The notes under the pieces are model-generated. The model was not told the origin of the DNA. It ran no database searches and was given only the letters and a program-made list of their open reading frames with translations. Positions 1 to 22,550 of a stretch of DNA of 22,550 nucleotides are shown in pieces (the stretch's first letter is position 1; every line of letters starts with the position of its first letter). Source of the stretch: a virus. The translations under genes and the position numbers were made by a program. Location: IMG/VR virus record IMGVR_UViG_3300042382_000558, positions 1 through 22,550 of that record. One strand, 5' to 3'.

Positions 1-450
1 ACGGCGCGCATGCTTGGCAGAACCTCCGCGAGCACAGGAGCGGTCGAGGAGATCACGGTCGGCGCGAATCTGTCACTCTCAGCGGGCTCTCTCGCGGTGA
101 CTGGTGTCGCGGTCTCGGGCTCGATCACAACCTCGGGACTCACCCAGTCCACGGCGCGCATGCTTGGCAGAACCTCCGCGAGCACAGGAGCGGTCGAGGA
201 GATCACGGTCGGCGCGAATCTGTCACTCTCAGCGGGCTCTCTCGCGGTGACTGGTGTCGCGGTCTCGGGCTCGATCACAACCTCGGGACTCACCCAGTCC
301 ACGGCGCGCATGCTTGGCAGAACCTCCGCGAGCACAGGAGCGGTCGAGGAGATCACGGTCGGCGCGAATCTGTCACTCTCAGCGGGCTCTCTCGCGGTGA
401 CTGGTGTCGCGGTCTCGGGCTCGATCACGACCTCGGGACTGACGCAGTCC
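1..450 (+). repeat. Three tandem 150-bp units inside the fibre gene
   Basis: Units start at 1, 151 and 301. The first two are identical; the third differs only near its end (429 and 441-444). A fourth, clearly diverged unit starts at 451. Because 150 is a multiple of three, each unit adds 50 residues in frame. The same units reappear at 22124-22550. Confidence 0.95.
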
Positions 451-1845
451 ACGGCGCGCATACTCGGACGGACGACAGCCAGTAGCGGAGCAGTTGAGGA
501 GATAACAATCGGTTCAGGTCTGACGCTTGCCGCGGGCACTCTCAGCGCGGCGGGCTCTGGTCCTGGCGGCTCGACGGGCGACTATCAAATCAATTCCTCG
601 GGTGCTTTTGCGGCGGGCGTAATCGCGCAGGGATCAACTGGGCGACTCACAATCACACCGACGGCCAGCACCTCGGGAACTGCGGCATACTTCAATCTTC
701 GCACTCCGGCCGATACCGGAATCACCGTCTCGACGGAATCCGTCGGCGTGTGGCTGGGCGGCTCGACGGGCTCGACAGTGACGCGCAATTGGACCGGCCC
801 CGGTACGGTGACAGCTCAACGTGAGATTGTAATTCAGGCCCCGACGTACACCTCAACGGGCGGCGTGACAGTGATCACGACAGGGGCAACTCTGGCGATC
901 ACCGGCCCCCCCATCGAGACCGGAACGGTCGGTGTGACAAACGCTCTCGCGCTCTGGATCGAGTCCGGAAACTCGCGGGTGAGTCTGGCAAGTGGCACTT
1001 CTGCGAGACCTGGATTCCAGCTCGGCGCTTTCAATACCGGTTTTTATCAGACCGGTGTTTTGCTGGCGATATCGTCGCAGGGTATTCCGGCGATCGGGTG
1101 GAACGGCTCAAACGGTAACACGACAATCGGCGATCCGTATTCAATAGTTTGGGGCTCTCTCGGTCTGACGATTCCCGATATATCGCTCTCCCGGTCGGCT
1201 GTCAGTGTGCTCCGAGTGGGCGACGCTTCGTCCGGTGCGGGTCAGTTGCTTGTTGCGGCCAACGGCACAACCGCGACAGGTCAGGTAACTATTCTCAGCG
1301 GGCTCACAAACCGGAACGCGCTATTTGCTCAGGGTGCAGCAGGCGGAACATTCGCGCCGCTGGTGGGTGTCGTCAATCCGTCGGTTACCAACATTGCCAC
1401 GACGCATGTCCTGTCGCTGCGGGCTCGATCGACAGGGACCCCGGCGGCGGGCTTTGGCGGCACGCTCAACCTTATGGCGCAGACCACCACGACGAACGAC
1501 GTACATGCGGCGGAAATTGTGTGGTCCTGGACTACCGCGACGCATGCAACCCGGACCTCTCAATTAGTGGTTTCGGTGGTCGCAGGAGCAACGGCTGTCA
1601 ACGTCCTGACAATCGATAGCGCAGGTCTGACAATCAGCCAGCGCGGAATCTACCTCACCCAGACCGGCGGCGGGGCAAACTATACCGGATTTATCGCGCC
1701 GTCAACACTGACCGCGACCAGCCCCTACACGATGCCGACGAACTATCCAGCGATGAACGGCGCAATGTTGGTTTCTGACACGGCGGGAACGCTCTCCTGG
1801 ATGGGCGACATTACCGATATTCTCGCAACGCAGGTTTTTTCATAA
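1..1845 (+). CDS. Phage fibre/spike protein, C-terminal part (5' end lies at 21794 if circular)
   Basis: Frame 1 is open from the first base, so the gene is cut by the window edge and the first ATG at 10 is not a real start. The left part is a 50-residue unit repeated in identical DNA, containing LGRTSAS and GAVEEITVG. Motifs of the LGRTTAGTGAVEEI type are widespread in phage tail-fibre proteins. After a diverged copy (residues about 150-185 of this part) comes a long Gly/Ser/Thr-rich beta region. The C-terminus (YTGFIAPSTLTA and GTLSWMGD) matches the usual end of such fibres. Expected role: trimeric receptor-binding fibre or spike on the virion surface. It is followed four bases later by another virion-type gene. 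The gene at the right end enters the same repeat in the same frame, giving a 724-residue protein if the 427-base ends are merged. Confidence 0.85.
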   Translation, partial: TARMLGRTSASTGAVEEITVGANLSLSAGSLAVTGVAVSGSITTSGLTQSTARMLGRTSASTGAVEEITVGANLSLSAGSLAVTGVAVSGSITTSGLTQSTARMLGRTSASTGAVEEITVGANLSLSAGSLAVTGVAVSGSITTSGLTQSTARILGRTTASSGAVEEITIGSGLTLAAGTLSAAGSGPGGSTGDYQINSSGAFAAGVIAQGSTGRLTITPTASTSGTAAYFNLRTPADTGITVSTESVGVWLGGSTGSTVTRNWTGPGTVTAQREIVIQAPTYTSTGGVTVITTGATLAITGPPIETGTVGVTNALALWIESGNSRVSLASGTSARPGFQLGAFNTGFYQTGVLLAISSQGIPAIGWNGSNGNTTIGDPYSIVWGSLGLTIPDISLSRSAVSVLRVGDASSGAGQLLVAANGTTATGQVTILSGLTNRNALFAQGAAGGTFAPLVGVVNPSVTNIATTHVLSLRARSTGTPAAGFGGTLNLMAQTTTTNDVHAAEIVWSWTTATHATRTSQLVVSVVAGATAVNVLTIDSAGLTISQRGIYLTQTGGGANYTGFIAPSTLTATSPYTMPTNYPAMNGAMLVSDTAGTLSWMGDITDILATQVFS

Positions 1846-3617: not shown

Positions 3618-4217
3618 ATGAACATTTCACCGGCGGGACTGGCGCTTATTAAACGATTCGAGCGGCTCCGGCTCTCAGCCTATGATGACGGTTACGGAAA
3701 TCGGACGATCGGATGGGGACACCTGATCCAGCCCGGCGAGAACTATCAGACTATCACCGCGGCGCAGGCGGACGAGCTGCTCGCGCTCGACCTGGCGACG
3801 GCCGAACGCGCCGTAAACTCGCTGGTTCGCGTCCCTCTCACTCAGTCGCAATATGACGCGCTGGTCTCGCTGGTGTACAACTGGGGTGCGGGTAATTTTC
3901 GGAACAGCTCTCACCTATCGCTTGTCAACTCTGGCGACTACGCAGGGACCGCGGCCCGGCTGCGGGCGCATCCGATCACGTCCGGCGGCGTCGCCTCTCA
4001 GGGGCTGGTCAATCGACGCGCGGCGGAGGCGGATTTATTCGCACGTGACGGAATCTACAGTCTCGCGGAGATGGGCGGCGCGTCCCCTGCCCCGACGACT
4101 CCGACGACCCCCACGACCCCCACAGACCCGACAGCCGCGGAACCTGGTAAATCGTGGGTGTATCCAGCCGTCGCAATTGGCGCGGCGTTGCTGGTGATCA
4201 CTCTCATAAATGACTGA
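3618..4217 (+). CDS. GH24 (T4-type) lysozyme with C-terminal membrane anchor
   Basis: A 199-residue endolysin of the T4 lysozyme/GH24 family, which hydrolyses the MurNAc-GlcNAc bond of peptidoglycan. The catalytic triad is visible with T4 spacing: Glu15 (IKRFE), Asp24 (AYDD) and Thr30 (NRTIGWGH). The catalytic domain covers about residues 1-145, including VSLVYNWGAGNF and VNRRAAEADLF. It is followed by a Thr-Pro linker (TTPTTPTTPT, about 158-168) and a hydrophobic C-terminal helix (about 181-197, AVAIGAALLVITLI). Ordinary T4-like lysozymes end after the enzyme domain, and SAR endolysins carry their anchor at the N-terminus, so a C-terminal anchor is unusual. It could fix the enzyme in a virion membrane or the host membrane. 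The start is set by GGAGG at the end of the preceding gene. Confidence 0.93.
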   Translation: MNISPAGLALIKRFERLRLSAYDDGYGNRTIGWGHLIQPGENYQTITAAQADELLALDLATAERAVNSLVRVPLTQSQYDALVSLVYNWGAGNFRNSSHLSLVNSGDYAGTAARLRAHPITSGGVASQGLVNRRAAEADLFARDGIYSLAEMGGASPAPTTPTTPTTPTDPTAAEPGKSWVYPAVAIGAALLVITLIND

Positions 4218-13157: not shown

Positions 13158-13185
13158 AGATTACAACGCTTTACAAAAAAAACAA
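13158..13185 (-). promoter_or_regulatory. Candidate leftward promoter of the early arm
   Basis: On the minus strand TTGTTT (13185-13180) and TAATCT (13163-13158) are separated by 16 bases. The same -10 hexamer occurs in the stronger promoter at 9906. The start of transcription would fall among the CCAAG repeats, about 50 bases before the ATG at 13099. Confidence 0.45.
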
Positions 13186-13214
13186 TTGACACCTGACATT
13201 TCCCGTGGTGATCT
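13186..13214 (+). promoter_or_regulatory. Candidate rightward promoter for the structural arm
   Basis: Consensus TTGACA (13186-13191), 17 bases, then TGATCT (13209-13214), a weak -10. TTGACACCTGA is shared with the promoter at 9906-9934. The mRNA would start about at the GGAGGT ribosome site (13221), leaving a very short leader. The weak -10 suggests need for an activator or an alternative late start. Confidence 0.45.
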
Positions 13215-13230
13215 GGTCGCGGAGGTACGA

Positions 13231-13764
13231 TTGATCACGTATGAACGATTACCTGATGGGATTCCGGGGACTATCCGAACGCTGGCGGCAATGGCGGCAG
13301 CGGTGCGCGGTGACGTTGGCCCGGATTATTGCGGGTATCGGGCAGAAGCGATCAGGCGCGCAGCTATCCGCATTTGCATGGGGATTCAGGGCCACGACTC
13401 ACAGGGCGAGCTCGGGGCCCTTTTTGAGTTTGTGCGTGACCAGGTCAAATATCGTGCGGACCCCTGGGATACTGAGAGAGTTCAGGACCCGTGCCAGACT
13501 CTGCTATTGGAGAGCGGCGACTGTGACGATAAATGTGTATTACTCGCGGCGCTGGTGGCGTCTCTGGGTTATTTGCCGCGTTTTGTCGTGCAGTCGCAGG
13601 ACCGTAAATTTTTTGACCATGTTTATTTAGAGGTGGAGCGGTCGGGGCAGTGGGTCGCGCTCGACCCTACAGCCGACGGCCAATCCGGGCTTGAATTGGC
13701 GACGGTCGGATGGCGAAACCCTACGGGGTGCGAATGGATTTATCAAATTTTTGAGGTGCGTTAA
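13231..13764 (+). CDS. Transglutaminase-fold cysteine peptidase-like protein
   Basis: A 177-residue protein. The start is TTG 13231, four bases after GGAGGT; the frame stays open further upstream but only through the divergent promoter. The transglutaminase-like (papain-clan) triad is plain: Cys98 in ESGDCDDK followed by a helix CVLLAALVASLGY, His130 in FFDHVYLEV, and Asp145 in WVALDPTADG. Members of this fold act as cysteine proteases, amidases or crosslinking enzymes. In phages they are usually uncharacterised and near structural genes. It is the first gene of the structural arm, overlapping the next by one base, so a role in virion maturation (proteolysis or crosslinking) is attractive. 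Possible substrates are the NP-punctuated proteins encoded downstream. Family is firm; substrate is inference. Confidence 0.85.
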   Translation: MITYERLPDGIPGTIRTLAAMAAAVRGDVGPDYCGYRAEAIRRAAIRICMGIQGHDSQGELGALFEFVRDQVKYRADPWDTERVQDPCQTLLLESGDCDDKCVLLAALVASLGYLPRFVVQSQDRKFFDHVYLEVERSGQWVALDPTADGQSGLELATVGWRNPTGCEWIYQIFEVR

Positions 13765-14033
13765 TGGATTATCTTTACGGCTATCAGGACCCGGCATGGC
13801 TTCAGATTGCAAACCGCGGCATCGACGTTCTCGGCGCTCGATACGGGCAGGGACAATATACGTCTCCCGATAATCCGATGTATCGGCAGGGCGGCGGCGG
13901 GGGTATAGTCGCCACTGGTCCAGCGCTTACGCCTGGCGCGGTGTCAGGGCAGGGATTTCAAATCAATTGGTGGGCTGCGGCTCTCGGCGGTGTTTTGATC
14001 GGGGCATTTCTGCTCGGTCGGAAGGGCAGGTAA
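13764..14033 (+). CDS. Small tail-anchored membrane protein
   Basis: An 89-residue protein beginning in the TAATG overlap, with GAGGTG as ribosome site. The N-terminal part is Tyr/Gly/Gln-rich (MDYLYGYQDPAWLQ), then a Gly-rich linker. A C-terminal membrane helix (about 69-84, WWAAALGGVLIGAFLL) ends with the basic tail GRKGR. This is the first of five consecutive genes with the same plan: soluble N-part, one C-terminal helix, basic end. The plan predicts a protein held in a membrane with the N-part on one side, as for minor proteins of membrane-containing phages. YGYQDP recurs in the 242-residue protein. Confidence 0.75.
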   Translation: MDYLYGYQDPAWLQIANRGIDVLGARYGQGQYTSPDNPMYRQGGGGGIVATGPALTPGAVSGQGFQINWWAAALGGVLIGAFLLGRKGR

Positions 14034-14037
14034 CTGT

Positions 14038-14514
14038 ATGGCCTGGCGTGGACATCTCAGAAGTCGCGGACTCGGTGAGGCTCTCCCGATCCGCCTGGTG
14101 ATCGATAATCCGATTCAGGTAGTCGGGCAGCGCGGGACATATCGCGTAATCGGCGCGCCGCCAGACGCAGAAATATTCTGGTCGAGCTACAAAAATGGCG
14201 TGGCAACCGGCGAACTCAACGCCAGCTATGGGCATAAGGTCGAGCCAAACGGAACCGCCTCGATCTCGATGGGCGCGCCGTGGACGGACGACCAGACGGG
14301 CAATTGGATCAAGGAAATTTTGGTCAAGGATGCCGCCGGAAACATCTCGACAGCAATGGTCCCGTTTACGGTTATCGGTGCTGGCAGCGGTGCAGCGGCC
14401 CCGGCCCCGGCATCAACAAACCCCCTTACCAGCTCGATCAATATCGCCGGGATCAATATCCCGGTCTGGGTCCCCGTCGCGGCAGTGGTCGCCGTGGTTG
14501 CGATGAAAAAGTAA
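14038..14514 (+). CDS. Tail-anchored membrane protein with beta-sandwich ectodomain
   Basis: A 158-residue protein. Residues about 17-115 look like one Ig-like beta-sandwich: alternating strands with EIFWSSYKNGV, GTASISMGAPW and WIKEILVKDAAGN. An Ala/Pro/Ser linker (about 118-130) and a C-terminal membrane helix (about 138-156, IPVWVPVAAVVAVVAM) end in KK. AGG lies upstream at some distance, so the start is moderately supported. It is probably an envelope or membrane-to-capsid bridging protein. Its end lies in a 14-bp direct duplication that also contains the next gene's start. Confidence 0.72.
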   Translation: MAWRGHLRSRGLGEALPIRLVIDNPIQVVGQRGTYRVIGAPPDAEIFWSSYKNGVATGELNASYGHKVEPNGTASISMGAPWTDDQTGNWIKEILVKDAAGNISTAMVPFTVIGAGSGAAAPAPASTNPLTSSINIAGINIPVWVPVAAVVAVVAMKK

Positions 14515-14536
14515 AAATGAACAAGTAAAAATGAAC
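14509..14536 (+). repeat. 14-bp tandem duplication covering a stop and a start codon
   Basis: AAGTAAAAATGAAC occurs twice in direct succession (14509-14522 and 14523-14536). The first copy holds the stop of the 158-residue gene and creates a three-codon minicistron (ATG AAC AAG TAA, 14517-14528). The second copy holds the start of the 242-residue gene. Confidence 0.9.
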
Positions 14537-15259
14537 AAACGACGCGCCATCCCCATTCCGTTTCTCGTTCCTGGTGTCCTGCGACGCAAACCGCTAGGGC
14601 TCGGATTTTTGCCGTCTGGCGAGTCGGGCGACGGAGATAGATTTACTGATTTTTGGGACCCCTACGATTACATGTCTCCTCGTGATAGTGGGTGGTATGG
14701 CGCGGGCGGTGGTGGTGATTATTATTACCAGCCCATAACCTATGATTACGGGTATCAGGACCCCGGCGGTTCCGGCGGCTATGGCCCCGGAGATACTATT
14801 TACATGCCCCCGACTACTGAGCGACTCCCGTTACCAAGATCAGACTGGGACCCGCTGCATCTTTTCACGCCATGGCTATACGATCCGGGCATCTACGATT
14901 TTACGTATGATCCCGGTATCCCGCCGGTCCCACGCTCGGGAGCAACGACCCCACGCAGACCGACGACGCCGACGACCCCGACGACTCCGCCGCGGCGACC
15001 GTCGCCAGGTAGCAGCGGGACGACCAGACCGACCCCGCAGAATCAGCAGTGTAGAGCGCCGTTTATTTTTGACGCGAAAAATAAAAAATGCGTGTTGCCG
15101 CCGTGTCCAGCAGGACAGGCGTTTTCGATCTCGCAAAATAAATGCGTCCCGATTCCACAGTTGACCGCGGAGGATGAGGTCAAAGAGCCTTTCCCATGGT
15201 GGTTTGTCGTGCTGATTGGAACCGGTCTGGTAATTGCGACATCGAGACCGAAAAAGTAA
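14531..15259 (+). CDS. Tail-anchored membrane protein with Thr-Pro linker and Cys motif
   Basis: A 242-residue protein. The first half is Tyr/Asp/Pro/Gly-rich, with YDYGYQDPGGSGGYGPGD about 74-91, and probably extended. A Thr-Pro linker (PTTPTTPTTPP, about 144-154) precedes a four-Cys segment (about 175-205, CRAPFIF, KKCVLPPCPAG, NKCVPI) that could form two disulfides. The C-terminal membrane helix (about 220-238, PWWFVVLIGTGLVIAT) ends SRPKK. No Shine-Dalgarno site precedes ATG 14531; initiation may depend on coupling through the minicistron. The linker-plus-anchor layout is shared with the lysozyme. Possible vertex, spike or membrane protein; not recognised by family. Confidence 0.7.
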   Translation: MNKRRAIPIPFLVPGVLRRKPLGLGFLPSGESGDGDRFTDFWDPYDYMSPRDSGWYGAGGGGDYYYQPITYDYGYQDPGGSGGYGPGDTIYMPPTTERLPLPRSDWDPLHLFTPWLYDPGIYDFTYDPGIPPVPRSGATTPRRPTTPTTPTTPPRRPSPGSSGTTRPTPQNQQCRAPFIFDAKNKKCVLPPCPAGQAFSISQNKCVPIPQLTAEDEVKEPFPWWFVVLIGTGLVIATSRPKK

Positions 15260-15820
15260 ATGTGTGACTGCATGCAAAATTCAGGACTTGGAGCAATAAC
15301 AGGCAGACCCGTCCACGTTGGCGCGCCGTTTGAGTTGGGCGTTGAGCTGGGGAATGTCCTTTTCGCGACGGAGGCAACCAGGATGCCGACGCTCCTCACG
15401 GAGATCGAAAGCAAACTAGCGGCCTCTGGATATATCTCCGGCCTGATTCGCGCTTATCAACTCTCTGGGACGATTAACCCATTTATCGTTATCGCTGGCG
15501 GGAGTGGTCGCGAATATGGTTCTGATCTCGATCTGAGAGACGCGGTGTTATCGGTGCTCGACGGGATAATGCGTGGCATCGGGAGCAACATCAATTACGC
15601 GAGTGTGACGTTTACCGCGCAGACCTACGACCCGCAGACCGGACAAACGACAGTCTCGACGACTCCGGCCCCGCGTGACGCTGTCACCGGTGGCGTCGGG
15701 GGAACTCTCGACCAGGTCGGGCAGACTCTCGGCGGCTGGTTCGCGACGGATTCACAGACCGGATTGATAATTGGTGGGATTGGCCTTCTCGGGCTGGTGT
15801 TATTGCTGAAACGAATATGA
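15260..15820 (+). CDS. Tail-anchored membrane protein
   Basis: A 186-residue protein starting right after the previous stop (TAAATG), without a clear ribosome site. The N-terminus MCDCMQN has two cysteines; an in-frame ATG at 15272 is an alternative start. An alpha/beta soluble part (about 25-115) includes LLTEIESKLAASGYISGLI and FIVIAGGSGREYG. A Thr/Gly linker and a C-terminal membrane helix (about 166-183, TGLIIGGIGLLGLVLLL) end KRI. It overlaps the next start (ATGA). Role as a virion membrane protein is inferred from the five-gene series. Confidence 0.7.
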   Translation: MCDCMQNSGLGAITGRPVHVGAPFELGVELGNVLFATEATRMPTLLTEIESKLAASGYISGLIRAYQLSGTINPFIVIAGGSGREYGSDLDLRDAVLSVLDGIMRGIGSNINYASVTFTAQTYDPQTGQTTVSTTPAPRDAVTGGVGGTLDQVGQTLGGWFATDSQTGLIIGGIGLLGLVLLLKRI

Positions 15821-16314
15821 AACGAATAATTGCCACGCTCAAACTCAATTTTGCACCGTCCACAACGGGCCCCGGTCCGCTTCTGTGGTCTTCTCCGGCT
15901 GTCCAGGTGTCGGCGGCGGAGGGGCTGGCGCGATTGATTGCGGCTCTCGGTCCTGAGTATGTGCAGGGTTCCGGCGAGATTTTAACCAATACTGGATTCG
16001 CGATTGTTCGATTGACAGTCACCGACCGCGGAGTTGAGATCGTGCGGAATTTTTGGGATGTGAAATCCGTTCAATCTGACACCTTGGCTTCAACATTTGT
16101 GCAGCCTGACATGACGAATGCCCCGGTGTACTCGACAAGCCCCGTCCAGACCGCGATACCTGTCCCGACGGTGGGTGTGTCACTGCCTGGAGCTGGCGCG
16201 GCGCTGGGAGTACCGCCGACGATGGCGACGACCGACGCGGGGGAGGTTCCAAACTGGCTATTGTGGGGCGGACTGATCGCGATTGGATTTTATTTGATGA
16301 AGGGGACTCGATGA
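15817..16314 (+). CDS. Tail-anchored membrane protein
   Basis: A 165-residue protein overlapping its neighbours by four bases at both ends (ATGA). The N-terminal domain (about 1-90) is mixed alpha/beta with AEGLARLIAALGPEYV and a beta pair (FAIVRLTVTDRGVEIV). A Pro/Val-rich linker (about 95-140) leads to a C-terminal membrane helix (about 146-161, NWLLWGGLIAIGFYLM) ending KGTR. Last of the consecutive tail-anchored series. No homologue recognised. Confidence 0.7.
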   Translation: MKRIIATLKLNFAPSTTGPGPLLWSSPAVQVSAAEGLARLIAALGPEYVQGSGEILTNTGFAIVRLTVTDRGVEIVRNFWDVKSVQSDTLASTFVQPDMTNAPVYSTSPVQTAIPVPTVGVSLPGAGAALGVPPTMATTDAGEVPNWLLWGGLIAIGFYLMKGTR

Positions 16315-17156
16315 GAAAAGCAACGACAAAAAAACGCAATCCGCGATACGTCGCGACAGATGAAAGCGGTTATGAGCTGGCATTTATTCCGGCTTTCAAC
16401 GCTGCTGAGGCTTTGAAAATTGCTAAAAAACGATACCCTGGGCGAAAGCTGAAAATTACAAAAGTCGATGAACAGATGTACATCGGGCGAGGCGCGAAAG
16501 AGCTGGAAGCAAAAGAGCGACAGCTCCGGAGAATTGCACGCGCGGGAAGTCGCAAGCGTAACCCCCTCGGAGACGCGGACGCCGCGAATCTCTACCATGA
16601 GCTAAATCAGGCGGGGCAGGGATTCGCCATCGGTGAGGATTACGACGACATCGGCACGGCCTCGGCGGCCAGTGGCTGGCACGTCGTGCATCGATACACG
16701 ATATCTCTCCTCCTCGCGGAAGATCCTGCGGGACGGCAGTTTCTCGTTGGCGGTGACGGGCAGGGGCGCGGACCGTGGGCGGTCTCAGTCCCGCGAGAGA
16801 ATCCCCGTCGTGGAGTGGCGCGAACCGTCACCCGGCGCGCAGTGGCGCGGGGCGTAGTCCAGCCGCGACGGCGCAACGCAACGCATATCCACGCGGATAA
16901 AATCGATCATCTGGACGTGGCGAAAATTCATAATCCTTCTGATGAAGATGAATATGTCCGCCTGGTATTTGAGGGGCGCGAGGGACTGATAGACGAATAT
17001 TATTTGGCGGACGATGAACGCACAGAAACATTAATCGCCATGAAATATGGCCCCGGATTGCATACCATGCCAGCCTATTACGGCTCAGATCCGGATGAAC
17101 TTGGTGATCCTACGGTTTACACCAAGACAGGTCATTACGTTACTTTTGAAGTTTAG
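16311..17156 (+). CDS. Basic modular protein punctuated by (K/R)NP motifs
   Basis: A 281-residue protein from ATG 16311 (AAGGGG about 6 bases upstream, ATGA overlap). Basic junctions separate compact segments: KKRNP at 7-11, RKRNP at 81-85, RENPRRG at 162-168, and PRRRNA at 185-190. Between them lie a small alpha/beta module (about 12-60, FNAAEALKIAKKRYPG), a helical stretch, a second module (about 86-160) with SLLLAEDPAGRQFLVGG, and a C-terminal acidic module (about 191-281) with EYVRLVFEGREGLIDEYY. It looks like domains joined by cleavable or DNA-contacting basic linkers. It shares this punctuation with the next two gene products. Not recognised as a named family; virion-interior location is inferred. 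Confidence 0.75.
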   Translation: MRKATTKKRNPRYVATDESGYELAFIPAFNAAEALKIAKKRYPGRKLKITKVDEQMYIGRGAKELEAKERQLRRIARAGSRKRNPLGDADAANLYHELNQAGQGFAIGEDYDDIGTASAASGWHVVHRYTISLLLAEDPAGRQFLVGGDGQGRGPWAVSVPRENPRRGVARTVTRRAVARGVVQPRRRNATHIHADKIDHLDVAKIHNPSDEDEYVRLVFEGREGLIDEYYLADDERTETLIAMKYGPGLHTMPAYYGSDPDELGDPTVYTKTGHYVTFEV

Positions 17157-17162
17157 GTGAAT

Positions 17163-18563
17163 ATGAGTCCACGCATTCAACGAAAACGCAAACGGCGCAA
17201 CCCTTACAACTCGCGCGGCGAATGGGTGATGGATCTCAATCACGTCCCAGGCGTAGATCCAGAGCTGGACGCGCTCTATTCCGATCCAGAGTTACGCGCG
17301 CTGGAATACGAACTGGAGCATGACGCGCGTCATCAGCTATTGCGGGACCTTGTGTTGAGCGGTGAGGCGACCGCGACCGAAATCAGCGAGTACAACAGCG
17401 ATGAACGACCCCGACGACTGATTCGGCGCGCGCTGGAGATTGGAGATTCTCGACGAAAAAACCCCCGGCGCCGTAACGCGCTTGACCGCGACTCCGATCA
17501 CCCGATTGAGGTAACGCGCCATTATCGAACGGGCCCCCCTGGGTATCTGTCACCGTGGCAGCGCGCCGCCAGTATGGGGCAGAATGAATTATTTTCGACG
17601 GGCATCGCCCTATCCAGTCGGGCGGCGGACCGGCTCAAATCGCGGAATCCTGGCGTTACAAAAGCGGCATATAAGGCGGGATTGAAAGAGGCGACGGCGG
17701 CGCAGCTCGGGAAGCTCGCGCGGATTGGACTCAGAACCGGGCACACAGTCGCGGAGGTCAAATCCGACTTGAAGGCGACCGGACGATTCACCGCGGCGCA
17801 GATAACGCGCGGACTCGACCAGGCTACAGCAGCAGAAAAGCGACAGAACCCAAAGCGGCGCGGGAATAAAGAGACGCAGGTCGCAATTGCTTTCAAGACC
17901 GACAAACGCGGAAAGACCCTTGCTTATAAATACTCTCCATCTGCTTCGCGATGGATCAAAACGGGACTCGATCAGGCGCGCATGATGATCTCGACGGGGC
18001 AAGCAAAGCAGGTTGATTACCTGTCACGCGTGACATCCGAGACGCTAAAGCAGCCGTACCAGAAGCATTCCGACACATGGATTGAAGACGTTCCGAGTAG
18101 TAGCAAATACGTCAACCCCGGAAAGGGCAGTCGCAAAACTCGCGAAATTTACGAGAAATTCAACGGTCGCCCGGCGCGAAAAACGACAACCACGACCGCG
18201 CCAAAAGGTACGCCCAAAAATGTCGCCAAGCTGGGCGCGCTCCGCCTGATCAAAACGACCGACGGGCGCAAATGGGCATTTTCCGGCGCTGGCGCGCCTG
18301 ACCTGGCTGCGGATTCTCGCGGACGGCTCCATGTAGTGGGTGGCAGCTATCGCGCAAATCCGGCGGGCGAACACGTCGGAGAGATCGAGCAGATCGAGTA
18401 CGAGACCCGGAAACCGCATCTCGGACAGCCCAAGCAGACAATTTATTATCATCGTCTCGGTGAGGAGGGCGGCAAGCGCCCGCGCCTGGTGATCGACCGT
18501 GAGGGACTCATAAAAATTCACGGCGGCGACTACCGCATAGAGGCGGACGGAATCCACGACTAA
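17163..18563 (+). CDS. Large basic modular protein with repeated NP motifs
   Basis: A 466-residue protein from ATG 17163 (AGGTGA immediately upstream); GTG 17157 is an alternative adding two residues. NP motifs recur at 13-14 (RKRRNP), 100-101 (RRKNPRRRN), 162-163 (KSRNP), 229-230 (KRQNPKRR), 318-319 (YVNPGKG) and 399-400 (YRANPAG), dividing it into segments of roughly 60-90 residues. The segment 164-225 is helical (LGKLARIGLRTGHTVAEV, then ITRGLDQATAAE); 236-315 and 352-398 look alpha/beta. The punctuation suggests a polyprotein processed in virion assembly, or a DNA-bound scaffold. No catalytic motif is seen. Function inferred from pattern and neighbours only. Confidence 0.75.
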   Translation: MSPRIQRKRKRRNPYNSRGEWVMDLNHVPGVDPELDALYSDPELRALEYELEHDARHQLLRDLVLSGEATATEISEYNSDERPRRLIRRALEIGDSRRKNPRRRNALDRDSDHPIEVTRHYRTGPPGYLSPWQRAASMGQNELFSTGIALSSRAADRLKSRNPGVTKAAYKAGLKEATAAQLGKLARIGLRTGHTVAEVKSDLKATGRFTAAQITRGLDQATAAEKRQNPKRRGNKETQVAIAFKTDKRGKTLAYKYSPSASRWIKTGLDQARMMISTGQAKQVDYLSRVTSETLKQPYQKHSDTWIEDVPSSSKYVNPGKGSRKTREIYEKFNGRPARKTTTTTAPKGTPKNVAKLGALRLIKTTDGRKWAFSGAGAPDLAADSRGRLHVVGGSYRANPAGEHVGEIEQIEYETRKPHLGQPKQTIYYHRLGEEGGKRPRLVIDREGLIKIHGGDYRIEADGIHD

Positions 18564-18604
18564 CGCGCACGCGCGCAGACCGCCATCCGGCGGGAAGGGG
18601 GCAT

Positions 18605-19252
18605 ATGCCAACGAAAGTTAAACTGGTCAATCCCGGGCCCGCGGCCCTGATGATCGTCAATCCCACAGGAGGGAAAAACATGCGAACTCGCAGCAAATCG
18701 ACGCGCCGCAAGTCGGCCCGGAAGAATCCAATCGCTAAATCAGCTTATCCGGCCCGCGTCCGTCGCCGTCGCGCGTCAAACCCAAAGCGCCGAACGGCGC
18801 GCCGTCATAATCCAGGGCTCAATCTTGGCCTGCTCTCTGAGGGCGTGACCCTCGCGGCGGGCGGTGGTCTGACCCAGTTCGTGACGAACATGGTCCCAGC
18901 AATCGGCGGCATGTCACCATTGGCAGACGCTGGGCGGACCGCAGCGGTCGCCTATATTCTCGGGATGGTCGCGAATCGCGTCGGTCTCTCGCGCTTCTCG
19001 CGACAGATCACGCTCGGCGGTCTGGCCGTCACCGGCGCGAAGCTCATCAACTCGTTTCTCGTTCCGTCGATTTCGTCCGTCTTCGGCCCGCGGATGGTCC
19101 AGGAGGCTCCGGCCCCGGCTGGAATGCAGGGAATTGGGATGTATCGTCCGGGGATGAATCCCTATTCCGCCTATAGCGGGCTGAATGGAATCGGCGTACA
19201 GATGCCGGGAATGTTCCCTTATGGCGACTACGCGCCGGACCCGAACGCCTAA
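18605..19252 (+). CDS. Arg/Lys-rich NP-motif protein with hydrophobic C-terminal domain
   Basis: A 215-residue protein from ATG 18605, or 190 residues from ATG 18680, which has the stronger ribosome site (AGGAGG). The first 25 residues hold two NP motifs (KLVNPG and MIVNPT). From Met26 a very basic region of about 45 residues repeats the pattern (ARKNP, ASNPKRR, RRHNPG). Three hydrophobic stretches follow (about 72-97, 107-124, 134-155), then a Gly/Pro/Met/Tyr-rich tail. A basic arm plus membrane-like segments suits a protein linking genome to a membrane or capsid. It lies directly before the probable capsid gene. Identity is not known. Confidence 0.72.
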   Translation: MPTKVKLVNPGPAALMIVNPTGGKNMRTRSKSTRRKSARKNPIAKSAYPARVRRRRASNPKRRTARRHNPGLNLGLLSEGVTLAAGGGLTQFVTNMVPAIGGMSPLADAGRTAAVAYILGMVANRVGLSRFSRQITLGGLAVTGAKLINSFLVPSISSVFGPRMVQEAPAPAGMQGIGMYRPGMNPYSAYSGLNGIGVQMPGMFPYGDYAPDPNA

Positions 19253-20271: not shown

Positions 20272-20736
20272 ATGGGTTATGGAATTTACGGCGGGTATTT
20301 CTCGGAATACGTCGCGACAATCCTCAAAAAGTACAAAACCTGGCAGCCGCTCTACCTCACGACCCTGATCGGTTTCGATGGCTCGACGGCCTCAGAGAGA
20401 ACGACTTGCTTCACGCCACAGGTTGACAGCGACGCGATACTATTCGCGGCCCATACGAATTTCAGCAACGCGCAAGTCAATCTAAAAATCAGCGATACCG
20501 GATCGGGGTATGTGTGGAACGTCCTACAGGGGGCAACAAGCGCGACCACAAGTGGAACTCCAGTAACAGCGATAGCGGGCGCGTCAACTCAGGTCATGCC
20601 GATTCTCGCGATGGTCTGCCCCTATTTTTTGAGCAGACAGAGCAAACTGCAGATGGATTTCACAAACGCTGCGACCAGCGTTGCAGGCGCGACCAGCTCG
20701 ATCACCTGGGTCGGAATCAAACTGCTTAATAATTAG
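20272..20736 (+). CDS. Small beta-rich virion-type protein (minor capsid candidate)
   Basis: A 154-residue protein with a strong ribosome site (AGGAGAG). A Tyr/Gly-rich N-terminus (MGYGIYGGYFSEYVATIL) is followed by beta-rich sequence with Thr/Ser/Ala loops. The alternating pattern (AILFAAHTNF, then VNLKIS; SITWVGIKLL at the C-terminus) resembles a single jelly roll or similar sandwich. There is no transmembrane segment. It lies directly after the capsid gene and before two further small beta proteins. A penton, spike base or minor shell protein is plausible, by position and composition only. Confidence 0.62.
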   Translation: MGYGIYGGYFSEYVATILKKYKTWQPLYLTTLIGFDGSTASERTTCFTPQVDSDAILFAAHTNFSNAQVNLKISDTGSGYVWNVLQGATSATTSGTPVTAIAGASTQVMPILAMVCPYFLSRQSKLQMDFTNAATSVAGATSSITWVGIKLLNN

Positions 20737-20743
20737 GTGACTC

Positions 20744-21127
20744 ATGATTTTCGTTCCATGGATGGAGACAATCTGGCTTCCGATTAGCGGGCGGTATCTG
20801 TACTACAGCACTCCTCAAGATACCGCGTGCATATTGACGGGATTTAACCTGGTGTACGGTCGAACGCTGCCCTATGATTCAACTTTTGATATTCAGATGT
20901 CCGAGAGCAGTTCTCCGGATACCTGGACACCGTTCTATTTTGCGCCATATCGCGCGTTATCCGGATATCAAGATCAGGGTGTTTCGCCAGTGAGCCAGCT
21001 CCCGCAACCGTTTCGGATTCGGCCATTTTCACGGGTTCAGATTGTTTTCAATATCAACCCCAATTTTTTTCCCATCGGAAGTCAAAACAGATTTACTCTG
21101 GTCGGAGTGCGGGAGGTGATCACATGA
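20744..21127 (+). CDS. Small beta-rich virion-type protein
   Basis: A 127-residue protein with AGGTGA close before ATG. Aromatic and proline-rich with alternating hydrophobics (ISGRYLYYSTPQD, then CILTGFNLVYGR) and a closing strand pattern RVQIVFNINPNFFP...RFTLVGVREV. This final pattern resembles that of the neighbouring capsid-type proteins. No membrane helix or catalytic motif. It overlaps the next gene by four bases. Probably a minor capsid or spike protein; no family assigned. Confidence 0.62.
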   Translation: MIFVPWMETIWLPISGRYLYYSTPQDTACILTGFNLVYGRTLPYDSTFDIQMSESSSPDTWTPFYFAPYRALSGYQDQGVSPVSQLPQPFRIRPFSRVQIVFNINPNFFPIGSQNRFTLVGVREVIT

Positions 21128-21615
21128 GTTTACAGCTCAACCACATGCGGTTACTCGCCGAAATGGCGCGTGTCCCCTACAGTGAGATCGTCCCGCATAT
21201 GTTCGGGATTGATTACGACCTGACCGCGGAATTTGGGTCGTTTATCGCCGCCTCAACTTTTGTCCCCGCTAATTCCGGATTGGTAGTTTTGCGGGTCCAA
21301 TGCTATGCAGTAAATATTGACGAAAACACGACGGATTATTTGTTTTACCGGTCTTATCCGCCGGAAGATTCGCGTTGGATTGTCGGTCTCAGCGACGATG
21401 ACATGTTTAGTCCGACTTGGGCGAACGCTTATTTGGATACTGACGTATTTTTGATTTTCCCGACTCAAAAATACGCCAACCTGTTATTCACTCCGATGGG
21501 ATTAGTTCCCGCGACGGGGACATGGATCGTTCGGACAATCGCTTATGGATACATCGTGCCAGTCCGCGTAGTCGATGCGTTGCAGGACAGCCAGGCGCTA
21601 ACTTCGGGGTATTAA
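21124..21615 (+). CDS. Small virion-type protein
   Basis: A 163-residue protein with a near-perfect ribosome site (GGAGGTGAT) and ATGA overlap with the previous gene. A helical N-terminus (about 5-25, LNHMRLLAEMARVPYSEIV) leads into beta-rich sequence (LVVLRVQCYAVNID, DVFLIFPTQKYANLLF, TWIVRTIAYGYIVPV). It is probably a partner of the preceding protein, perhaps forming a vertex complex or the attachment point for the fibre encoded 180 bases further on. Function inferred from order only. Confidence 0.62.
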   Translation: MSLQLNHMRLLAEMARVPYSEIVPHMFGIDYDLTAEFGSFIAASTFVPANSGLVVLRVQCYAVNIDENTTDYLFYRSYPPEDSRWIVGLSDDDMFSPTWANAYLDTDVFLIFPTQKYANLLFTPMGLVPATGTWIVRTIAYGYIVPVRVVDALQDSQALTSGY

Positions 21616-21617
21616 TC

Positions 21618-21791
21618 TTGACCAGATGGGAAATCATCTACGGCGGCGAAGACTGGCAATCCCGGCCCCCTGGCGGAGCGGGGATTTTTGGTCCATCGTG
21701 CGGAATCCTGCTGGAGACCGGCGCGCCTGATTATATTCTGGTTGAGGATTCAAGCGGCTCAAACGACGTGATTTTGTTAGAGGATTGTTAA
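21618..21791 (+). CDS. Short acidic fibre-associated protein
   Basis: A 57-residue protein from TTG 21618, three bases after the preceding stop; in-frame starts further upstream would lie inside the preceding gene. The ribosome site is weak (GGGGT). The C-terminal motif DYILVEDSSG...VILLEDC is a beta-strand repeat (xxILLEDxSG) that I know from small phage proteins and fibre ends. It lies just before the fibre gene, so a fibre-assembly or attachment role is plausible. The start codon is less certain than the frame. Confidence 0.6.
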   Translation: MTRWEIIYGGEDWQSRPPGGAGIFGPSCGILLETGAPDYILVEDSSGSNDVILLEDC

Positions 21792-21793
21792 AC

Positions 21794-22550
21794 ATGGCGA
21801 CATCAAAAAAAATAACAGCGATGCCGTCCCTAGGCGGTACACAGGTCCCGACAGACCTGATACCGGCGATTGACCTTAGCGCGCTTCCAGCCGCTCAGAA
21901 CGTTCAAACGACGCTCAATGACCTGTTCGCGACGATCACAAAAAACATCACGGACGGCGCTCTCAGATTCCAGGCGGTGACGGCCCCGGCGACCAGCACG
22001 GCGGGCAACGGCGCAATCTATTTCAGCTCGGCGACATCGACATTTCAGGCGTCTCAGGCGGGCAGCGCGTATGCCGCTATCGTCCTGGCGGGCTCGATCA
22101 CGACAAGCGGTCTGACCCAGGCGACGGCGCGCATGCTTGGCAGAACCTCCGCGAGCACAGGAGCGGTCGAGGAGATCACGGTCGGCGCGAATCTGTCACT
22201 CTCAGCGGGCTCTCTCGCGGTGACTGGTGTCGCGGTCTCGGGCTCGATCACAACCTCGGGACTCACCCAGTCCACGGCGCGCATGCTTGGCAGAACCTCC
22301 GCGAGCACAGGAGCGGTCGAGGAGATCACGGTCGGCGCGAATCTGTCACTCTCAGCGGGCTCTCTCGCGGTGACTGGTGTCGCGGTCTCGGGCTCGATCA
22401 CAACCTCGGGACTCACCCAGTCCACGGCGCGCATGCTTGGCAGAACCTCCGCGAGCACAGGAGCGGTCGAGGAGATCACGGTCGGCGCGAATCTGTCACT
22501 CTCAGCGGGCTCTCTCGCGGTGACTGGTGTCGCGGTCTCGGGCTCGATCA
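21794..22550 (+). CDS. Phage fibre/spike protein, N-terminal part (continues at window start)
   Basis: ATG 21794, with GAGGA about 8 bases upstream and three bases after the previous stop; open to the window end (252 codons). The N-terminus (MATSKKITAMPSLGG, then VPTDLIPAIDLSALPAAQN) is typical of phage fibre attachment domains. It is followed by a helix, a beta segment (about 65-110) and then the same 50-residue repeats that open the left end. The frame joins the ORF ending at 1845 exactly, because the terminal overlap and each repeat are in phase. Merged over 427 bases, it encodes about 724 residues; merged over 127 bases, about 824. It would be a receptor-binding spike or fibre of the virion. 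Confidence 0.85.
   Translation, partial: MATSKKITAMPSLGGTQVPTDLIPAIDLSALPAAQNVQTTLNDLFATITKNITDGALRFQAVTAPATSTAGNGAIYFSSATSTFQASQAGSAYAAIVLAGSITTSGLTQATARMLGRTSASTGAVEEITVGANLSLSAGSLAVTGVAVSGSITTSGLTQSTARMLGRTSASTGAVEEITVGANLSLSAGSLAVTGVAVSGSITTSGLTQSTARMLGRTSASTGAVEEITVGANLSLSAGSLAVTGVAVSGSI
22124..22550 (+). repeat. Tandem 150-bp fibre repeats and terminal direct repeat with positions 1-427
   Basis: Units start at 22124, 22274 and 22424, the last cut at 127 bases. The whole stretch equals bases 1-427, ending just before the first difference in the left-hand third unit (429). It is both an in-frame protein repeat and the overlap that closes the circle. Confidence 0.95.

Follow-up and report, generated by a model that had tools for sequence, protein, structure and literature searches.

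Basic asparagine-proline headers precede exchangeable modules in putative virion proteins of a probably tailless virus lineage

The internal proteins of phage T4 and the DarA-DarB proteins of phage P1 are variable head proteins that are packaged in the capsid and delivered with the DNA. The polyvalent proteins of phages and conjugative elements combine disparate domains in a single polypeptide and are subject to strong shuffling, and processing by peptidases has been proposed for some of them (Iyer et al. 2017, PMC5512222). The phage SSIP-1 is tailless and has an internal membrane (PMC6356626). Here, we analyze the 22,550-base IMG/VR virus record IMGVR_UViG_3300042382_000558, which we refer to in its entirety as the window, and focus on three adjacent genes, denoted K1, K2 and K3, in an operon headed by a gene for a transglutaminase (TGase)-fold cysteine peptidase-like protein. 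The K proteins carry arrays of asparagine-proline (NP) dipeptides, many of them behind basic residues, that stand at the borders of exchangeable modules, and K2 ends in a conserved domain, denoted Z. The reading that we favor, with a probability of about one half, is that these are modular cargo or core proteins of the virion interior, with the basic NP headers as hinges that contact the packaged DNA and Z as a constant dock.

The head proteins of T4 and P1 differ from the K proteins in that they belong to tailed phages and have known prohead-protease sites of a different kind, and no sequence relation to them was found. With the polyvalent proteins, the K proteins share the presence of several domains per polypeptide, frequent shuffling, and encoding by phages (IMG/VR virus records with a structural operon), and shuffled multi-domain phage proteins as such are already known (PMC5512222). 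However, the conflict and nucleic acid-related domains described in polyvalent proteins (metallopeptidase, ART, ParB, methylase) were not recognized in the K proteins of the window, its relatives or more distant viruses, whereas methylase and ParB_N domains are present in the gp43 protein of SSIP-1; the window lineage has a uniform NP header for each module and a separate TGase-fold gene in place of an embedded metallopeptidase; and neither a terminase nor a portal was recognized in it. In the literature searched, a limited library, we found nothing relevant on KRNP or RRNP motifs and no description of a uniform header per module that is common also to a neighboring basic protein and a capsid arm.

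Compared with composition-preserving shuffles of the same proteins, NP is strongly over-represented in K1 (4 seen, 0.39 expected), K2 (6 and 0.79) and K3 (6 and 1.19; p<0.0005 in each case); none of the 35 other window genes tested has more than three NPs, and only two genes with a single NP reach p about 0.04-0.05. An earlier note, made from the letters of the window alone, had listed these motifs as a non-random feature with at least three basic copies in each product. All the listed motifs are present and the arrays and their enrichment stand for all three genes, but the count was a little high: about 3 sites in K1, 4-5 in K2 and 2-3 in K3 are strictly basic, with KIHNP, SKYVNP, KLVNP, MIVNP and PGMNP basic only weakly or not at all. 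Close relatives, with capsid genes 67-99% identical to that of the window, are found in six IMG/VR contigs of 18-22.6 kb (L002-L007) and in one contig of a metagenome-assembled genome (MAG; L023). K and K3 are the NP-rich proteins in every close relative, and in none of the eight close genomes does the enrichment extend to other genes. More distant viruses were reached through Z (L047, L048 and L049, which are larger), through K3 (L057), or with a degenerate DNA pattern built from the hydrophobic region of K3 (L079); all of these have Z, the TGase gene and a K3-like protein that contains NP, and their capsid proteins show a recognizable relationship in part. Among the K1/K2 homologs (non-redundant set), 73 NPs were seen where 11.8 were expected, a six-fold excess; for the K3 homologs, the numbers are 42 and 7.1.

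The residues in front of NP follow a defined pattern. In the non-redundant K1/K2 set, the frequency of lysine or arginine is 0.49 at position -3, 0.58 at -2 and 0.34 at -1, compared with 0.17 overall; position -1 varies (R, H, Q, A, S), and the consensus is (K/R)(K/R)xNP, with the basic residues concentrated at -3 and -2. The codons for asparagine (AAT/AAC) and proline (CCG/CCC/CCT/CCA) differ from site to site, which indicates that selection acts on the protein and rules out a repeat or recombination site at the DNA level. Within the set of 23 K and K3 proteins, NP occurs no more than 25 residues from the N terminus in 17 and no more than 25 residues from the C terminus in one, so that the motif stands ahead of the modules, the first one included, and not behind them. 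The number of motifs per protein ranges from 1 to 8, and in the minimal form, that of L079, Z comes immediately after a basic tail that contains a single NP. A scan of viral contigs for RRNP with CGN arginine codons only returned mostly frame-shifted or unrelated open reading frames (ORFs) and was set aside.

Among the relatives, whole stretches delimited by (K/R)(K/R)xNP have been swapped, put in a different order, merged or divided. The K2 genes of the window and L002 are 93-100% identical in DNA through KRQNPKRRGN, continue into unrelated modules, and regain identity exactly where the next NP is encoded (AACCCC); the borders of this exchange lie at NP codons or at most 8 codons away. L003 holds both alternative K2 segments, together with others, between NPs, and one module occupies the N terminus in L003 but an internal position in L013. 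Segments of K1 have been gained, lost and exchanged in L003, L004 and L005, and K1 and K2 form one gene in L005, L013, L023 and the L006 contig, and two or three genes elsewhere. Downstream of the K1 stop of L004, the last module of the window K1 persists out of frame (L004:7997-8140), apparently as a remnant from the insertion of other modules. One module of this virus (amino acids 334-380 of L004:6816-8018) scores 24.1 bits against Pfam DUF6926, below the cut-off of 27, and no other cargo module points even this faintly to a known domain. Outside the exchanged K2 segment, L002 and the window share mostly 92-100% identity in their structural genes, and identity drops to 82-83% in m3 and m4, the last two genes past the capsid gene, which suggests patchwork recombination.

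Across all K proteins, 32% of the ends of homology blocks fall within 3 residues of an NP, compared with 8.4% under a null in which NP positions were rotated (p<5e-5). Because matching NPs could attract alignment ends, the motif and the three residues before it were masked; in this test, 43% of block ends lie within 10 residues of NP, against 24% expected. In the AlphaFold model of K2 (ten-row alignment; mean predicted local distance difference test score, pLDDT, 63), the NPs at 15, 102, 164, 231 and 320 lie in stretches with pLDDT <50, mostly between helical or beta segments, and the one at 401 is in a loop inside the confidently folded Z domain. The proposal of the earlier note that the motif sits at segment borders is thus upheld by module swaps, by homology-border statistics and by the predicted structure of K2. 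Foldseek and VIA-align searches with this model yielded no significant match for Z or the other modules, which does not by itself imply new folds. A neutral explanation for these observations would be that NP is well suited to capping helix N termini and to breaking helices, and that inherited basic linkers mark the places where domain insertion is tolerated; several NPs indeed sit at helix starts in the K2 model (164/165, 320/323). The sharp preference for basic residues at -3 and -2, the recurrent pairing of the motif with unrelated modules and its persistence in the SSIP-1 counterparts discussed below argue against such neutrality, and we rate it as the least probable of the explanations considered here.

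The TGase gene, which does head the operon as the earlier note had it, is present upstream, in the same operon and with an intact catalytic triad, in every genome tested (11/11 relatives, L079 and SSIP-1, or 13/13). The co-occurrence of (K/R)xNP enrichment with the peptidase gene across relatives, a check that had been suggested along with this assignment, is therefore observed, and a search among the relatives for NP arrays without the peptidase gene found none. The only match of the TGase protein among annotated phages is gp34 of SSIP-1, itself annotated as structural (tblastn E 9e-7; PF01841 in both). Downstream of gp34, SSIP-1 encodes gp41, gp43 (2319 amino acids) and gp44, all three annotated as structural, and capsid genes, that is, a homologous TGase-fold structural protein is followed in the same order by a multi-domain protein, a gp44/K3-like protein and capsid genes. 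In contrast to the window, SSIP-1 has a genome twice as large, with few motifs and without NP arrays. Its (K/R)xNP motifs are, nevertheless, concentrated: four of the five lie in gp41-gp43 and, when H is also accepted, five of six lie in gp41-gp44; this region accounts for 22% of the proteome (post hoc binomial estimates of p about 0.01 and 0.003, respectively). They are found at the start of gp41, before the C-terminal hydrophobic segment of gp41, in gp42, and immediately ahead of the final 165 residues of gp43. By analogy with the structural annotations of SSIP-1, the K proteins would be located in the virion. SSIP-1 also has a packaging ATPase, gp40, whereas no Walker A motif (GxxxxGK[ST]) was detected in the window ORFs of at least 80 amino acids, although a degenerate P-loop would escape this pattern; because no such ATPase was recognized, the window is not filed as an SSIP-1-like member.

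These observations raise the possibility of maturation cleavage, which the earlier note had offered beside crosslinking and sorting, whereby K1/K2 would be a true polyprotein and the TGase-fold peptidase would cleave (K/R)xNP sites in the course of assembly, releasing the modules, trimming K3 and, perhaps, taking off the N-terminal arm of the capsid protein. The constant presence of the TGase gene, triad intact, upstream in the operon, the interchange of fused and split forms of K1/K2, and the annotation of the SSIP-1 TGase as a virion protein are all in keeping with this possibility, as is the probable capsid protein, where an NP (residues 41-42 in the window) closes the N-terminal arm, 14-15 residues ahead of a conserved YD, in 8 of 10 viruses and is missing from the two with a short arm. 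However, the flanks of the motif are loose except for NP itself and the basic residues at -2 and -3; an NP that is kept in seven viruses lies inside the folded Z and is absent from the distant homologs; and the TGase is as old as SSIP-1, which has no arrays. Furthermore, the faint nearest matches of the TGase, with E-values that are not significant, are cell-wall enzymes, the pseudomurein endo-isopeptidases (Pei; Peptidase C71 of the transglutaminase-like superfamily), which have the same fold class and Cys-His-Asp arrangement, and the C-terminal hydrophobic anchor of the distant forms suits host entry. These matches would suit a role of the TGase at the cell wall at least as well as that of a motif protease. 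On balance, we consider cleavage unlikely, even if it is more probable than any other alternative. The wider proposition, that (K/R)xNP is a maturation signal for a virion TGase-fold peptidase across a broad lineage of tailless viruses, which would free shuffled modules, trim the capsid arm and accept any domain behind the header in the manner of plug-in cassettes, appears less probable still.

The header could also be a sorting or packaging label, a short linear signal that is bound by a capsid or membrane protein and provides each module with a virion address of its own. Its place ahead of each module and near N termini, its occurrence in adjacent virion proteins and the retention of RENP in the SSIP-1 counterparts are compatible with such a label. 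A single signal per protein would suffice for this purpose, though; the count per protein is variable; and many of the motifs are in K3 arrays with arginine tracts that resemble nucleic acid-binding tails. Accordingly weighed, labeling seems to us more doubtful than either form of cleavage.

In the favored scenario of modular cargo with DNA-contacting hinges, we infer that K1 and K2, one gene in several relatives, would make up a multi-module protein of the virion interior, and that K3 would be its basic partner, probably associated with the membrane. The short (K/R)(K/R)xNP header, within an unstructured basic linker, would precede each independently folding module and would most likely act as a flexible basic hinge that touches the packaged DNA and caps the fold that follows, a combination that would make modules swappable without disturbance to their neighbors. 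The modules between headers would be cargo or core domains with a history of gain, loss and shuffling among viruses, much as in the injected polyvalent proteins of other phages, and Z, the sole module retained in every relative and found also in L047, L048, L049, L057 and L079, would be the constant part, probably docking the protein in the virion. The arginine- and lysine-rich arrays of K3 adjoin a hydrophobic region, which counts in favor of this scenario; in the close group, K3 starts with KLxNPGPAxLxxVNPTGG, followed by the NP array and the glycine-rich hydrophobic region. A DNA-contact repeat, which the earlier note had entertained as an alternative to a protease and its sites, matches these arrays better than that pair does.

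Several observations weigh against the hinge-and-cargo scenario. One NP lies inside the folded Z. The modules of the window lineage have no clear known function: comparison of the K proteins of the window, the relatives and the distant viruses with Pfam and PHROGs gave no hits above cut-off. The similarity between Z and the C terminus of gp43 is weak (hhalign E 0.007, with about 1 in 1000 shuffles scoring as high), and that between K3 and gp44 is no better than in shuffles. Finally, in SSIP-1 the motif survives as RENP but lacks the basic linker, a sign that it may be recognized by something with more specificity than the charge of DNA.

Table 1. Features of the window discussed in the text
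Feature	Position	Strand	Description
Fibre-like gene with 150-base DNA repeats	21785-22550 + 1-1845		Spans the record ends
Lysozyme-like endolysin	3618-4217		Proline/threonine linker and C-terminal transmembrane segment; lysin anchor oddly placed
TGase-fold cysteine peptidase-like protein	13168..13764	+	First gene of the structural operon; Pfam Transglut_core E 2.6e-7; start codon uncertain
Five consecutive small proteins	13764..16314	+	From hydropathy; order conserved in relatives
K1, modular protein, 281 aa from ATG	16311..17156	+	Headers KKRNP (16338), RKRNP (16560), RENP (16800), KIHNP (16932)
K2, modular protein, 468 aa	17157..18563	+	Headers RKRRNP (17199), RRKNP (17460), KSRNP (17646), KRQNP (17847), KYVNP (18114)
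Sixth NP of K2, YRANP	18357	+	Inside the C-terminal domain
Z, conserved C-terminal domain of K2, about 147 aa	18120..18560	+	Ends in ...GGxYxIEADGIHN; from alignments
K3, 215 aa	18605..19252	+	Conserved N-terminal KLVNPGPAALMIVNPTGG, basic NP array, then glycine-rich hydrophobic region
Probable major capsid protein, 272 aa	19335..20153	+	From position and conservation; part homology to an L048 protein (hhalign E 1.8e-5 against the window profile)
Three further small proteins	20272..21615	+	Homologous among relatives, order conserved; probably minor capsid or spike proteins

The structural operon (Table 1) is conserved in gene order across L002-L007 and L023: the TGase-fold gene is followed by small proteins with C-terminal hydrophobic segments, the K gene or genes, K3, the capsid gene and further small proteins. 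The Cys-His-Asp triad of the window TGase is intact (GDCDD / FDHVY / ALDPT). In L058-L061, the TGase itself bears a C-terminal hydrophobic anchor, which in the close group seems to have been split off as the gene that starts at 13764. Most of the five small proteins have a single C-terminal hydrophobic segment with a basic end (GRKGR, MKK, RPKK, LKRI), as in tail-anchored membrane proteins, and a run of at least five such proteins is conserved in the window, L013, L023, L047-L049 and L079. The 37-kb relatives encode, both in the interval from K to K3 and next to the capsid gene, proteins rich in zinc ribbons (CxxC) (L047:5808-6698, L047:8542-9021, L057:1798-2745). For the probable capsid protein, which was assessed against the two single-jelly-roll major capsid proteins of SSIP-1-like membrane-containing icosahedral phages, there was no sequence match in the PDB, and the AlphaFold model (pLDDT 40) is unusable for assessing the fold, so that a fold search with it is meaningless.

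The ends of the window record overlap inside the 150-base repeats of the fibre gene, and the window is therefore very probably a complete circular genome; the number of these repeats is not trustworthy, as the circular join falls within the array. The L006 contig carries an 87-bp terminal repeat. Genomes of the lineage span 18-41 kb, and for most of the structural genes tested, neither Pfam nor PHROGs nor the annotated phage collection contains a match. Searches of annotated phages with the K proteins, the capsid protein and K3, and of plasmids with the K fusion, produced no significant match. Patescibacteria were considered as hosts, given that L023 is in a MAG of this phylum, and rejected: Z was detected in 1 of 380 genomes of the phylum, that MAG alone, where its presence could equally well reflect binning contamination or a free virus. 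Altogether, this is a previously undescribed lineage of small bacterial viruses that are probably tailless.

A header that delimits exchangeable modules would amount to a natural cassette format, one that shows where domains can be joined, and it may provide a straightforward criterion by which modular virion cargo could be recognized in unknown viruses. Moreover, the findings tie SSIP-1, an unassigned isolate with a membrane, to a metagenomic lineage, which would make the question testable in a phage that can be grown.

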